A DNA stretch of 33,500 nt from positions 1 to 33,500 of the forward strand of contig JAFGTD010000339.1 in NCBI GenBank assembly GCA_016934295.1, given 5' to 3'. This DNA is from Acidobacteriota bacterium. Its GTDB lineage: Bacteria > Acidobacteriota > UBA6911. Below the pieces are notes generated by a model. That model had not been told where the DNA came from, searched no databases, and saw only the letters and a list, made by a program, of their open reading frames with translations. Of this stretch, positions 28,483 to 33,221 are shown one piece after another (position 1 is the first letter of the stretch; every line of letters starts with the position of its first letter). The translations under genes were made by a program, and so were the position numbers.

Positions 28483-28522
28483 TCGTGCGTTGCACGTTGC
28501 ATGTTGAACGTTAGAACGTTCA
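28483..28522. repeat. TGCAACG-type short repeats and an 18-bp dyad at the tyrA end
   Basis: GCGTTGCACGTTGCATGTTG-like units are followed by the perfect dyad TGAACGTT-AG-AACGTTCA (28505-28522), whose right arm covers the tyrA stop codon. It lies between convergent genes. No T-tract follows on either strand, so it is not a typical terminator. Confidence 0.5.
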
Positions 28523-29674
28523 GAATGACGGATTCTCTAACTGCTCCTGAATTCGCGTACTGTGCTTGAGGATGACCGCAAAGAGTTCATCGATAAAGTC
28601 GTCGGGCAGGTTCAGGGATTTTCCCCATTCCGCTCTCTGTTTCAGCATTCCTTTTTCACGGTCCGGGTCCTTAGGCGGCGTCGACTGATGCGTCTTGATT
28701 TTCCCGATGCGTCGAGCTGTTTCGATCCGGCGTGCCAGGGCCGATAAAATCTGCCGGTCGTACTGATCGATCATGCCGCGCAGATCCTGTTTTCGGGGCT
28801 TCGGCAGACTCCCGGGCCCCATCTTTCGACGCCGGCTTGCGGCCTGTTCCCAGGCAAGAACCGCTTTCTGGTCCGAAATCAAACCGCTTATTAATGAAAG
28901 ACTTTCATTAAACCGGCCGAGCGCCCGGGCGATCCCGTCCCGGTTGGTTTCCAGAATCCCCTTCCAGATTTTATAGTCCGAGGCCGAAAGACGGGTCAGA
29001 TCCAGAAACCCGCGCCCGGCGATTTTATCCAGCATGTCATGCTCGGCATCTCCGGACAGGGCGGCATGCATCAGGGCGACCGAGAGTATATGGGGCAGAT
29101 GGCTGATCATTGCCATGATGGCGTCATGTTCGTCAGGATCGATGGTAACGGGCAACGCCTGAAGGCTTTCGGCCAGTTCCATCAATACCAGCAACGCTTC
29201 AGGAGGCGTATCCGGATAAGGGCAGAGGACATATACCCGGTCCAGAAACAGAAGCGGATCCGAAGCTTCGACGCCGGAACGTTCCGAACCCGCCATTGGA
29301 TGGCCGCCGATAAAGTGAACTCCCGGGGGAAGCCGCTTCCGCGCTTCTTTCATAATGTTCTTCTTTGTGCTCCCGACATCCGTAACGATCGTGCCATCTT
29401 TCAAATAAGGGCGTATCGTATCGAGAGTATCCGGAATCATCTGTACCGGCGTGGCCAGGATGACAATGGAGCTTTCGGGCAAACAGGTCTCCAGGTCTTC
29501 CATTGTACCAACCCGGTCGGCGACACCCGCTTCCTGAATTGCCGGAAGGCGTTCAGCCAGATCGATGCAGGTAACCGTACAGTCCTGCCGGCGCCTTTTC
29601 AATGCCAGGGCGATCGATCCTCCTACGAGACCGCATCCGATAATCGTGACCATCATATTTTTAATACGTATCAT
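28520..29674 (-). CDS. tyrA: Prephenate dehydrogenase with C-terminal chorismate mutase
   Basis: This 384-residue bifunctional enzyme of tyrosine synthesis converts chorismate to prephenate and then, with NAD(P), to 4-hydroxyphenylpyruvate. Residues 8-280 are the dehydrogenase: Rossmann motif G13-C-G15-L-V-G18, TDVGSTK at 98, and GGHPMAGSERSG with His125. Residues about 295-380 are an AroQ-type chorismate mutase: R299 in LRGMIDQYDRQIL, arginines 315-316, K325, DPDRE at 336-340, and S372 and Q376 in HSTRIQ. These match the E. coli active-site set R11, R28, K39, D48-R51-E52, S84 and Q88. In E. coli TyrA the mutase is N-terminal; here the order is reversed. The start is 1 nt after the aroF stop (TAAGATG), so translation is coupled. 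It shares the aroF attenuator. Confidence 0.95.
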   Translation of the reverse strand: MIRIKNMMVTIIGCGLVGGSIALALKRRRQDCTVTCIDLAERLPAIQEAGVADRVGTMEDLETCLPESSIVILATPVQMIPDTLDTIRPYLKDGTIVTDVGSTKKNIMKEARKRLPPGVHFIGGHPMAGSERSGVEASDPLLFLDRVYVLCPYPDTPPEALLVLMELAESLQALPVTIDPDEHDAIMAMISHLPHILSVALMHAALSGDAEHDMLDKIAGRGFLDLTRLSASDYKIWKGILETNRDGIARALGRFNESLSLISGLISDQKAVLAWEQAASRRRKMGPGSLPKPRKQDLRGMIDQYDRQILSALARRIETARRIGKIKTHQSTPPKDPDREKGMLKQRAEWGKSLNLPDDFIDELFAVILKHSTRIQEQLENPSF

Positions 29675-29675
29675 C

Positions 29676-30704
29676 TTATCCGGCCTTCCCGAGCTGACGC
29701 CCGATTGTCGTGGCGATAATCCGGCATCGGTTCATCAAAAGTCCGAACTCTTCAAAATTCAATGACTGCGGACCGTCCGACAGCGCTTCTTCCGGGCGGG
29801 GGTGGATCTCGATCATGATGCCGTCGGCTCCGGCCGCCACTGCCGCCCGCGCCATGGATGCCACAAACCTCCGGCTACCCACACCATGGCTGGGATCGAC
29901 AATGACAGGAAGGTGGGACAAATGCTTTATCACCGGAACGGCTGAAAGATCCAGGGTATTTCGTGTGGCTGTTTCAAACGTTCTTATACCGCGCTCGCAA
30001 AGAACCACATCCGGATTGCCTTCCGTAAGAATATACTCCGCGCTCATCAACCATTCCTGGATCGTGGCCGACATGCCCCGTTTCAATAATACCGGTTTTT
30101 CCTTATGACCGAGGGCGGTGAGAAGCGGATAGTTCTGCATATTGCGGGCGCCCACCTGCAAAAGATCGGCGTACTCGGACACCAGATCGATCTGGTCGAT
30201 CGTCATGACTTCCGTCACAACCGCCATGCCATGACGATCCGCCGCTTTTCGAAGCAGCTTTAATCCTTCCAAGCCCAATCCCTGGTAGGAATAGGGGGAA
30301 GAACGCGGCTTAAAAGCGCCTCCCCGGAGAATCTTGGCGCCGCAGTCGGCCGCGAACCCGGCGCAGGCCTCTATCTGTTCTTCACTCTCAACCGCGCAGG
30401 GGCCGGCCATCACGGCAATATCCAGTCCCCCGACCAGGCTCTCCTCGCCGACGCGTACGACCGTATCCTCGGGATGAAACTCACGGCTCGTGAGTTTGTA
30501 CGGCGTGGAAACAATGACCGTATCGCGAACACCCGGCATCATGGAAACCGCGCCGATATCCAGCCGATTGCGATCCCCGACCACACCAAGGATGGTATGC
30601 TCGACACCGTCGGAACGGTGTACCGTCAGTCCCGCCTCCTTAATCTTACTCTCCACGGCCTTGACCTGTGCTTCCGTTGCCTTGGCTTCACAAATAATGA
30701 TCAT
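29676..30704 (-). CDS. aroF: DAHP synthase, type I-beta with N-terminal FTD domain
   Basis: This 342-residue enzyme condenses phosphoenolpyruvate and erythrose-4-phosphate into 3-deoxy-7-phosphoheptulonate, the first shikimate-pathway step. Residues 1-70 are the ferredoxin-like (FTD, ACT-like) regulatory domain. The barrel from about 95 carries MAGPCAVESEEQ, LRGGAFKPRSSPYSYQG, VGARNMQNY, VLLKRGMSATIQEWL, CERGIRTFE and DPSHGVGSR, with the metal-binding Cys, His and Glu residues expected. The ATG at 30704 has GAGAGGTG 6 nt upstream; the longer form from 30731 would overlap it. It forms an operon with tyrA. FTD-containing enzymes can be feedback-inhibited by aromatic amino acids, and the tyrosine-codon attenuator upstream adds transcriptional control. 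Confidence 0.95.
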   Translation of the reverse strand: MIIICEAKATEAQVKAVESKIKEAGLTVHRSDGVEHTILGVVGDRNRLDIGAVSMMPGVRDTVIVSTPYKLTSREFHPEDTVVRVGEESLVGGLDIAVMAGPCAVESEEQIEACAGFAADCGAKILRGGAFKPRSSPYSYQGLGLEGLKLLRKAADRHGMAVVTEVMTIDQIDLVSEYADLLQVGARNMQNYPLLTALGHKEKPVLLKRGMSATIQEWLMSAEYILTEGNPDVVLCERGIRTFETATRNTLDLSAVPVIKHLSHLPVIVDPSHGVGSRRFVASMARAAVAAGADGIMIEIHPRPEEALSDGPQSLNFEEFGLLMNRCRIIATTIGRQLGKAG

Positions 30705-30734
30705 GAATGCACCTCTCATCCCGCACTGCAAACG

Positions 30735-30779
30735 GGTAAAATAATAACGGCCCGCCGATCATCCCGGCGGGCCGTTATT
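30735..30779 (-). terminator. Attenuator terminator in the aroF-tyrA leader
   Basis: A perfect 15-bp stem (30743-30757 with 30765-30779; AATAACGGCCCGCCG and its complement) has a 7-nt loop. On the minus strand it is followed by ATTATTTTA. It stands between the tyrosine-rich leader peptide and aroF, about 40 nt before the aroF start, so it can only act as an intra-leader (regulated) terminator for this operon. Confidence 0.9.
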
Positions 30780-30819
30780 GCTTTCTATTCTGCAAACTAA
30801 GAAAGTAAAGACAAAACCC

Positions 30820-30876
30820 TCAGGGACCGGGTCGATATGAGCTGTAATAATAATAAACACCCTGCAGCAAGCTCAT
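30820..30876 (-). CDS. Tyrosine-rich attenuation leader peptide of aroF-tyrA
   Basis: This is an 18-codon open frame, MSLLQGVYYYYSSYRPGP. Codons 8-11 are TAT TAT TAT TAC and codon 14 is TAT, so five of 18 residues are tyrosine. AGGAAG and AAAGAG lie 5-17 nt upstream of the ATG at 30876. It ends 41 nt before the 15-bp terminator hairpin that precedes aroF. By analogy with trp and phe leader peptides, ribosome stalling at the tyrosine codons when charged tRNA-Tyr is scarce should prevent the terminator from forming. The start-codon region (ATGAGCT, 30870-30876) can pair with AGCTCAT (30837-30843) just after the tyrosine run. An antiterminator partner is less clear: GGGTT at the leader stop could pair weakly with GGCCC of the terminator stem. 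Confidence 0.85.
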   Translation of the reverse strand: MSLLQGVYYYYSSYRPGP

Positions 30877-31160
30877 CTTGTCTCTTTCTTCCTGTAAACC
30901 TTTTCGATAATAAAGCTACCCAATGTATTAATGCTTTAAATGCACAAGTAAATATATAACTCTACGGCTCAAAGGGCCATACTAAAAACGCCATGGATTA
31001 ATTTATTCCCTGTTTCCCGTCAAAACAAGGGGAAGAGAGAAAATCCTCGTTTTTACTGACGGCTATACCGTATCCATATGATATAAAACCGGTATTTCTT
31101 ATCTGCGATTGCGGGCATTTAAACTCAATTCGTCCCCTGAGGAAAAGAGGAGGATCGCAA

Positions 31161-33221
31161 ATGACAGGTGGATATACCGGAAAAATATTAAGAATCAACC
31201 TTACGAAGAAAACGATCGGCACGCTGGATACCGAGCAATACGAAGAATACGGCGGCGGCCATGGCATCGGCTCCGCAATCTTCTGGGACCTTGCCGGCAA
31301 TCAGATGCCTTTCAGCGCGTTCGATCCCCGGAATGTCCTGACTATCATGACCGGACCCTTTTCAGGCGTAATCGTTCCTTCGGCCGCGGGGAGGTGTGAG
31401 GTACAGGGCCTCGGCCCGCAGGGTTATCCGGTTGAATGGTTTACGCGCAGCAATTTCGGCGGCCGCTTTTCCACGCAGCTTAAATATGCGGGATGGGACG
31501 GCATCGTTGTTGAAGGGGCCTCTGACGATCCCGTCTGGATACAAATTATCGACGACAAGGTCTCCTTTGAAAACGCGCGAACTCTCTGGGGCATGGACGT
31601 CATGGAAACCCAGGAGGAAATCTGGAGACGGGTCCATCCCGGCTCCAAATTCGGAGAATGGACGGACATCGGAGAGCGCTATACCACCCAGAAACCTGCG
31701 GTATTGTGCATCGGCCAGGCGGGAGAAAGCCTGGCCAGGATTGCGTGCCTAATCCATGATGCCGGCAACGGCGCCGGACAGGGCGGATTCGGGGCGGTCT
31801 TCGGCGCGAAGAAACTGAAGGCCATCAGTGTTGTCGGGACAGGCAGCGTCGGCATAGCCGATCCAAAATCACTGATGGATGCCCGGTTGTGGTACAGGAA
31901 ATTTCAATATGACGTGGATAATCCGAAGCTGGAGGATCCTCCGGATTCCTTCGTATTTTCACCCGTTAACAACAGCCCGGCCGATGATAATTTTTTAAAC
32001 AAACAGCCTCCCTTTGAGCCGGCAAGGGCTCAGGCGTGCGCCGGTTGCGCCAAAGCATGCCGCCAGCGATTGGCCGGGGGCATCAGCAATGAATCCAGCT
32101 GCGAGGATACGATCTGGGCAATCGGAATTCAGGGTTCGCCCAAGGACAGGAAGGTAGCCTGCGACCTGGTACAGCAGTACGGCGTGAATGCTTTTCAGAT
32201 GCGCCCAATGCTTGCATACATTGAAGCACTCCATAAGAAGGGCTTGCTGGGACGCGGAAGGAAAATCCAAACCGACCTGCCGATGGAACTTTTTGGAAAA
32301 GTGGAATTCATCCAGGCTCTTTTGCGGAAGATTGCAAACAAAGAGGATATTGGAGAAGCTCTCAGTGGCGGGGTCGCCCGGGCGGCGGAAAGCTGGGGAA
32401 GATACAAGGAGGACAACGACAGCGGGCTCCTGACGCTGCCGAACTGGGGTTATTACGAGCACAATGATCCCAGGCTCGAACCGGAATGGGGCTATGGCTC
32501 CATTTTGGGGGAGAGGGATATCAACGAGCACGGCATAAGTTTTGCCGTGCATTATATGCCCGGAATAACGTTCGGATCCAATACGGAGCCGGTACTTCCC
32601 GCGGAGAAAGTCGTGGAGATATTGTCCTCCAAGGTCGCTCCCTATACCGGGAATCCTTTCATGTTCGACTACAGTGAAGGCCCTAGAGGCATTTACTCGG
32701 ATGACAGGGTCAAAACCATCGCGTGGCACAGGCATTACTCCAGGTTCTGGATTCAGTCCGCTCTGTATTGCGACTGGGTGTGGCCCCTGTTCTTTACCCC
32801 GAACGTTGCGGATATGTCGGGCGCAACACCCGAAGGCGAACCCAAATTCTTCAATGCCGTCACCGGTAAGAAAATCAGCTTCACCGACGGAGTTGAAAGC
32901 GGCCGCAAGATCTGGAACATAGATCGGTCGATATGGGTTCTGCAGGGCAGGCATCGGGACATGGAGGTCTTTACCGGTTATGTTTACAACGTCCCGACCC
33001 AATCACCGTACTATCTGCCGGTATACGAAAACGGAAAATGGTCTTACAGCACCTGTACAGGCAGGGTTCTGGACCGGTCGAAATTCGAGGAATGGAAGAC
33101 TAAATTCTATAAGTTTGAAGGTTGGAACAGTGACAGCGGATGGCCGAAAAGAAAAACCCTCGAGGAAATAGGATTGCAGACAGTCGCCGATACGCTTCAG
33201 GCAAGAAACAGATTGGGTTAA
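31161..33221 (+). CDS. Aldehyde:ferredoxin oxidoreductase-family tungsten/molybdenum enzyme
   Basis: The 686-residue cytoplasmic enzyme is of the AOR family, which oxidises aldehydes to acids (or, in BamB-like branches, reduces aromatic acyl-CoA) with a bis-tungstopterin and a [4Fe-4S] cluster. The N-terminal domain shows GYTGKILRINLTKK, GPFSGVIVPSAAGRCEVQGL and FGGRFSTQLKYAGWDGIVVE. The pterin-binding stretch includes IGQAGESLARIACLIHD and GAGQGGFGAVFGAKKLKAI. Cluster ligands are Cys293, Cys296 and Cys300 (C-x2-C-x3-C) and Cys537 (YCDWVW), the spacing seen in AORs. The length is slightly above the classical 605-620. AGAGGAGG precedes the ATG. The flanking genes do not reveal the substrate. 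No separate electron-transfer subunit is adjacent. A terminator follows. Confidence 0.92.
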   Translation: MTGGYTGKILRINLTKKTIGTLDTEQYEEYGGGHGIGSAIFWDLAGNQMPFSAFDPRNVLTIMTGPFSGVIVPSAAGRCEVQGLGPQGYPVEWFTRSNFGGRFSTQLKYAGWDGIVVEGASDDPVWIQIIDDKVSFENARTLWGMDVMETQEEIWRRVHPGSKFGEWTDIGERYTTQKPAVLCIGQAGESLARIACLIHDAGNGAGQGGFGAVFGAKKLKAISVVGTGSVGIADPKSLMDARLWYRKFQYDVDNPKLEDPPDSFVFSPVNNSPADDNFLNKQPPFEPARAQACAGCAKACRQRLAGGISNESSCEDTIWAIGIQGSPKDRKVACDLVQQYGVNAFQMRPMLAYIEALHKKGLLGRGRKIQTDLPMELFGKVEFIQALLRKIANKEDIGEALSGGVARAAESWGRYKEDNDSGLLTLPNWGYYEHNDPRLEPEWGYGSILGERDINEHGISFAVHYMPGITFGSNTEPVLPAEKVVEILSSKVAPYTGNPFMFDYSEGPRGIYSDDRVKTIAWHRHYSRFWIQSALYCDWVWPLFFTPNVADMSGATPEGEPKFFNAVTGKKISFTDGVESGRKIWNIDRSIWVLQGRHRDMEVFTGYVYNVPTQSPYYLPVYENGKWSYSTCTGRVLDRSKFEEWKTKFYKFEGWNSDSGWPKRKTLEEIGLQTVADTLQARNRLG

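Follow-up and report, generated by a model that had tools for sequence, protein, structure and literature searches.

Genes and leader reading frame at the aroF-tyrA locus

The window, that is, the whole 33.5-kb stretch of DNA analysed, comprises the entire contig C115 of a 343-contig assembly, and its host is an Acidobacteriota MAG; the closest relatives with a name (L031-L037) are MAGs that carry the label Acidobacteria or Acidobacteriota. On the minus strand, aroF (29676-30704, read from the ATG at 30704 to 29676) encodes a DAHP synthase (3-deoxy-7-phosphoheptulonate synthase) with a ferredoxin-like N-terminal domain (TIGR01361, 394 bits), and tyrA (28520-29674) encodes a prephenate dehydrogenase with a fused C-terminal chorismate mutase (PDH_N, PDH_C and CM_2). 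According to the domain matches, both genes of the operon serve tyrosine synthesis, in agreement with the preliminary description of this DNA, which had placed a leader and a hairpin directly upstream of these two genes. An aldehyde ferredoxin oxidoreductase gene (31161-33221) lies upstream of the leader in the opposite direction. A promoter scan gave no match on the minus strand upstream of the leader; by eye, a TGnTAnnAT-like block stands 5′ of the leader in eight of nine loci and is not clearly present in the window.

The leader peptide reading frame MSLLQGVYYYYSSYRPGP (30820-30876, minus strand, including the stop codon) runs from the ATG at 30876 to the TGA at 30822-30820 with 18 sense codons, and such a leader is found in 11 genomes. 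Codons 8-11 are four consecutive Tyr codons, TAT TAT TAT TAC (30844-30855), and codon 14, 5 codons before the stop, is a fifth (30835-30837), so that the coordinates and codons are as first described. A purine-rich Shine-Dalgarno tract, AGGAAGAAAGAGAC (30880-30893, minus strand), precedes the leader and also provides the 5′ strand of the P1 pairing treated below. The leader end and the hairpin are separated by 40 nt, and the hairpin and aroF by 38 nt.

Among the 594 small ORFs (8-30 codons) of the window, only the leader contained at least four Tyr within eight residues. The Tyr-run pattern TAYTAYTAYTAY, however, occurred at eight sites in the 5.45-Mb genome, versus 17 for the reversed control pattern, and the Tyr run alone was thus not counted as evidence. 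Of the remaining seven sites, two of which overlap, none is part of a short ATG-started frame; a 28-codon open stretch with a TTG holds one (L163), and the rest are within longer open frames or lack a start codon. As judged by sequence comparison, it is conservation, not the Tyr run alone, that raises the leader above chance.

A terminator-like hairpin precedes aroF

The putative terminator hairpin (30743-30779, minus strand) consists of 15 perfect pairs and a 7-nt loop. Its stability in the window corresponded to a z of −6.4 against 500 shuffles, and the hairpin was more stable than shuffles in all nine leaders tested (mean z −5.0). The perfect 15-bp hairpin of the preliminary description was thus recovered, but the U-rich tract proved weaker than described: the short U tail ATTTTACC (30735-30742, minus strand) has four T in eight after the full 15-bp stem, and a terminator scan that needs five T in eight reported the window hairpin on the plus strand only and gave no minus-strand match. 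When the A-U pairs at the stem foot are taken as part of the tract (TTATTATTTT after GGGCCG), six of the first eight positions in the window are T. Counted in the same way, seven of the 11 leaders have 6-7 T in eight, and the other four (G001, G003, G012 and G014) have 3-4.

Short or weak U-tracts, together with a hairpin that ends a few tens of bases 5′ of the aroF start in seven of nine loci, would be compatible with translational control, in which the hairpin would influence how ribosomes reach aroF. However, the Shine-Dalgarno sequence of aroF appears by eye to lie outside the hairpin, the gap between hairpin and aroF is longer in the window and in G005, and most of the tracts reach at least six T in eight when counted after GGGCCG. 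We therefore regard translational control as very unlikely.

Covariation in the terminator and stop hairpin was limited to one pair changed on both sides, which 378 of 500 shuffles equalled, and the observed share of paired cells was matched by nine of 500 shuffles; covariation is too sparse here to weigh for or against these structures.

Conservation of the leader among relatives

AroF was matched in 146 of the 149 genomes searched, and every one of the 10 genomes whose AroF is at least 75% identical, the window's own genome among them, carried the leader. A covariance model of the leader, built from nine leaders, gave full-length matches with E of 2.7e-20 or better in 11 of the 38 genomes of the class, comprising nine of 10 genomes of the host genus and both genomes of a second genus in its family. 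The model matched neither G002 (host genus, 76% complete) nor G010, G011 and G013, which belong to this family as well. Among 396 genomes of the phylum, strong matches were confined to the same 11; weak matches (E 0.0024-0.05) came from 18 genomes belonging to neither genus, three of which were also matched in the class-level search, and the phylum-wide search used stricter filters, which lose weak matches. Rfam gave no match in the window at the gathering score, T-box included. At E ≤ 5, Rfam returned three unrelated weak matches only (E 1.7-3.8, in 30600-31160), which were rejected.

A hairpin kept without a Tyr-rich frame would have spoken against the preliminary proposal, but both were kept in 11 of 11 Acidobacteriota leaders found, with 2 to 6 Tyr in the reading frame and CUGAGGG or AUGAGGG as the stop context. 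The leader peptides of the relatives are MMRAGFNYYCYSYKTDP, MNNRFYSYYYYGSYQTDP, MSRRFYYCFSSYATDP, MAVRYYRFYYRGYFKTDP (two genomes), MTVRYFYCRAYFKTDP, MSRCYCRYYYRGSRDRSP, MNRCKCHYYRIPQESGP, MNSRFYFYYFGAFTTGP and MSLLERVHYYYGSHRPGP. In the 10 distinct peptides, Tyr is the commonest of the 163 residues after Met (38), followed by Arg (20), Ser (16), Pro (13) and Phe (12), and the C-terminal residue is Pro in all 11 leaders. Where the alignment has gaps in the leader (five of nine rows), they span 3 or 6 nt; gaps in the spacer span 1-4 nt. Phe, Cys or His replaces some Tyr codons in the relatives, and the leader of G014 retains two Tyr. The last aromatic codon stands 5 codons before the stop in eight of 11 leaders, being Tyr in the window, G001, G008 and G003 and Phe in G004, G006, G007 and G005; in G012, G014 and G009 it stands 8 or 9 codons before the stop.

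This composition bears on a more general attenuator, in which ribosomes would stall on Tyr and Phe codons alike. Phe occurs in seven of 11 Acidobacteriota leaders, is the aromatic codon nearest the stop in the four named above, and outnumbers Tyr in G005 (four versus three). On the other hand, the window leader has five Tyr and no Phe, four of 11 leaders lack Phe, Tyr exceeds Phe by 38 to 12 over the leader peptides, and the operon itself makes Tyr. We consider such a general aromatic attenuator unlikely, and specificity at least mainly for tyrosine remains the preferred reading.

Two relatives differ in the arrangement downstream of the leader. In G006, the leader sits at the end of a contig separate from aroF, and a group II intron lies between the terminator and aroF, spread over two contigs (L133 1-123 and L006 2533-2604); RF02001 matches L133 1-40 and RF00029 matches L006, and by eye the intron starts directly after the tail. 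Insertion downstream of terminators is a habit of some group II introns. G009, the eleventh genome matched by the covariance model, keeps the leader, and L140 1668-2473 reads the start of aroF joined to the end of tyrA, an internal loss that is either a deletion or an assembly fault.

Mutually exclusive structures predicted by folding

The leader was folded in search of mutually exclusive structures, and an antiterminator competing with the terminator was present in the computed folds. Four strands on the minus strand would be involved. The outer 5′ strand, GGGTTTTGT (30811-30819), directly follows the stop codon, and its start doubles as the 3′ strand of a stop-codon hairpin (P3, CCC:GGG). 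CTTTCTT (30799-30805) is either the inner 5′ strand of the antiterminator or the 3′ strand of P1, in which it pairs with the Shine-Dalgarno tract. AGAAAG (30781-30786) is the inner 3′ strand, and ACGGCCC (30769-30775), within the 5′ arm of the terminator, is the outer 3′ strand. In the predicted antiterminator, the GGG after the stop codon and the next bases thus pair with ..CGGCCC in the 5′ arm of the terminator, with CUUUCU:AGAAAG as an inner helix.

Over the 11 leaders, the outer antiterminator pairing beat every one of 2000 shuffled sets, and P1, in which CUUUCUU(C) pairs with the Shine-Dalgarno tract, was equalled by none of 2000; the inner antiterminator and P3 were marginal (86 and 84 of 2000 shuffled sets as good, respectively). 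Because the tests used mononucleotide shuffles of one strand and the related sequences are not independent, these numbers overstate significance. Whole or partial P1 was seen by eye in all nine minimum-energy folds. The antiterminator segment by itself was significant in four of nine leaders and the stop hairpin in two of nine; the stability of the complete ribosome-free leader was significant at p ≤ 0.05 in none of nine.

Ribosome position and the modelled choice of structure

In the ribosome-position model, a ribosome was set at each codon and the free downstream RNA was folded, the polymerase having made the 5′ arm of the terminator only; the model assumes equilibrium and a ribosome that covers 12 nt past the first base of the A-site codon. 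Thirteen leaders, including two from Myxococcota, were modelled, and means were taken over 12, with the near-duplicate G006 left out. For the window leader, the modelled antiterminator probability was 0.95 with the ribosome at the last Tyr codon (codon 14) versus 0.01 at the stop codon. In every one of the 12 leaders, the antiterminator was likelier at the last Tyr than at the stop (means 0.72 versus 0.11), and the difference of 0.61 compares with 0.03 (sd 0.08) in 400 spacer-shuffled sets, none of which was as high.

In G012, G014, G005 and G009, where the last Tyr lies 8-9 codons before the stop, the modelled probability at that codon was 0.28-0.44. In G005 it was 0.99 at the last Phe versus 0.31 at the last Tyr, a further point in favour of stalling on either aromatic codon. 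For the ribosome-free state, the modelled antiterminator probability ranged from 0.05 to 0.98 across leaders. The low ribosome-free values of the window (0.05), G009 (0.13) and G004 and G006 (0.23 and 0.24) suit a role of P1 as a default-off clamp; those of G001, G003 and G012 (0.85-0.98) do not.

These data also bear on whether the reading frame could be incidental to a conserved hairpin, the hairpin acting constitutively or with another factor and the Tyr run not being sensed. The hairpin is indeed the most strongly supported element across the nine leaders, and translation of the leader is predicted from sequence alone. Against this stand the Tyr enrichment in 11 of 11 leaders with gaps in multiples of three, the fixed stop context with an antiterminator that depends on the stop in the model, and the lack of a match to any Rfam family. 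An incidental frame thus seems most improbable, and a translated, sensing leader is favoured.

Paralogous DAHP-synthase genes

As a control, 19 stretches with paralogous DAHP-synthase genes in the relatives were inspected, namely eight fusions (L111-L118), 10 third-paralogue loci (L119-L128) and one other (L129), and no conserved aromatic leader was found in them. Seven of the 19 have one or more short ORFs upstream that are loosely aromatic (3 of 8 residues). Of these ORFs, MILFPYIFAYFGHETRSADYSSAP in G000 (L119) is the densest; no equivalent is listed for the remaining third-paralogue loci, and its ATG was seen by eye to overlap a TAGAAT common to several of these loci. The stop and antiterminator context was seen by eye in none of the 19.

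The fusions are proteins of about 670 aa with a DAHP-synthase part, found in eight relatives (L111-L118). The only one scanned with Pfam, at L031 23-1990, joins chorismate mutase, prephenate dehydratase and DAHP synthase. The Phe branch thus has its own fusion in relatives, which argues further against a general aromatic attenuator before aroF-tyrA, although this fusion was not found in the window's own assembly.

Leaders upstream of aroF in other phyla

AroF loci were surveyed over the best 80 of 385. A strict screen for a leader plus terminator was passed by nine of the 80 (one own-family, two Myxococcota and six Chloroflexota) versus none of 1600 shuffled regions; since six of the seven own-family loci in the set failed, the screen is too strict and nine is a lower bound.

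The two Myxococcota MAGs carry a sister aroF-tyrA operon, with AroF 70-71% identical and tyrA downstream, and the clade of own-family and Myxococcota sequences had a support of 0.999 in a tree of 82 sequences. Their leaders, MKKQYRYFYYFSPNSPDR and MNRPRLYNYHYYYYCAPRAPDR, are Tyr-rich. The Acidobacteriota covariance model gave no match to them at E ≤ 1e-4, and their predicted antiterminator, AGGUGAGUU:AGCUCACCU, likewise contains the stop codon while the hairpin sequences differ. The Tyr frame and the position of the switch are thus common to both phyla and the hairpin sequences are not; at the level of sequence, the two-phylum comparison suggests that the sensing frame was kept and the hairpins were rebuilt.

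Leader-like ORFs were also observed at 12 Chloroflexota loci (L047, L049, L058, L064, L067, L072, L074, L085, L090, L097, L098 and L107). They have 11-12 codons with mixed Phe, Tyr and Trp, lie upstream of aroF near a −10-like box, and are perhaps leaderless. A long hairpin holds the stop region at these loci, and a GCAGAGG..CCTCTGC-T hairpin precedes aroF. In L067, aroA, aroE and aroC domains follow, the gene content of the other loci having been judged by eye; an operon of the common pathway would be in keeping with a mixture of aromatic codons. The Acidobacteriota switch logic was absent from the Chloroflexota leaders in the ribosome-position model (12 loci, L064 misread): at the aromatic codons the model mostly gave low probabilities, and at the stop it often gave higher ones. 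Separately, in L082 (Acidobacteria gp1), a leader-like ORF, MTRFTYFSFAYFRYWFTS.., followed by a hairpin that is terminator-like by eye, lies upstream of 3001, before aroF.

Discussion

Most sequence-level features of the attenuator class are, as read from the DNA, present in this leader. Attenuation of the trp/phe type with tyrosine as the sensed amino acid, as initially proposed, is supported by comparison and modelling, from which we infer the response to tyrosine. We thus consider it highly probable that the leader is a ribosome-mediated transcription attenuator that senses at least mainly tyrosine, through the charging of Tyr-tRNA. When Tyr-tRNA is scarce, the ribosome would stall on the Tyr codons and leave the antiterminator strand free, so that RNA polymerase would continue into aroF-tyrA. 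With ample Tyr-tRNA, the ribosome would reach the stop codon and cover the antiterminator strand, the terminator would form and transcription would end. In some species, pairing of the Shine-Dalgarno tract with the antiterminator strand may tip the balance towards termination when no ribosome loads.

A broader scenario can be offered only tentatively, and we think it rather less probable than its converse: the leader would be a three-state Tyr switch that travelled with aroF-tyrA between Acidobacteriota and Myxococcota, its Tyr frame kept and its hairpins rebuilt. With no ribosome, CUUUCUU(C) would pair with the Shine-Dalgarno tract, hiding the start and occupying the antiterminator strand, and the terminator would form. 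With a ribosome stalled at Tyr, CUUUCUU(C) would pair with AGAAAG and permit read-through. A ribosome at the stop codon would overrule the CUUUCUU(C) pairing.

Textbook cases of leader-peptide attenuators exist for Trp, Phe, His, Leu, Thr and Ile/Val. Like trpL and pheL of E. coli, the leader described here is rich in the end-product amino acid and sets a putative terminator against a predicted antiterminator before a biosynthetic operon. It departs from the textbook anatomy of trpL and pheL in that its antiterminator strand starts at the stop codon of the leader and in that the Shine-Dalgarno tract can form a helix with this strand. The amino acid sensed would also differ, being Tyr here and Trp or Phe in the E. 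coli trp and pheA attenuators, as given in the available part of PMC11802643. The same source, citing Neshat et al. (2014), provides a near parallel in C. glutamicum aroR-aroF, where an aromatic leader peptide likewise precedes a DAHP-synthase operon; the AroR leader, however, is Phe-Tyr-Phe and reportedly answers Phe limitation, not Tyr availability, which is a precedent in favour of a general aromatic attenuator.

Attenuation before aroF has been predicted elsewhere. The uORFC-13-1 motif of Acholeplasma also combines a short ORF and a terminator before aroF, with Phe codon(s) and in another taxon, and uORFC-8-2 of Rhodobacterales is likewise a codon-specific attenuator of unusual specificity, namely Cys, although it precedes a tRNA-synthetase gene, cysS (both in the available text of PMC8632094, which also cites a 1980 paper as hypothesizing attenuation of E. 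coli aroF). Song et al. (2005) predicted terminators and antiterminators before tyrA gene pairs, such as aroA-I-beta>tyrA of Thermus thermophilus and aroA-I-alpha-Y>tyrA of Vibrio. Those attenuators, however, came from a structure-prediction website, the word 'leader' is absent from the main text, and the available part of the article describes no Tyr codons and has no Acidobacteriota in Table 7 (PMC1173090). An Actinobacteria survey, in its available part, lists attenuators for His, Thr and Phe, and T-boxes for Tyr in other species (PMC1262725).

We found no Tyr-codon attenuator in a literature search that covered mostly open papers, a result that is no proof of absence. The class of mechanism is classic, and Tyr specificity is the part for which no known precedent was found. 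The same kind of gene pair, E. coli aroF-tyrA, also responds to aromatic amino acids, but does so through TyrR, a DNA-binding repressor reported, in the available text of PMC1173090, only in lower gamma-Proteobacteria. A Tyr-specific attenuator, if true, would thus fill a gap in the set of known leader-peptide attenuators, and would do so before an operon that E. coli controls by TyrR.
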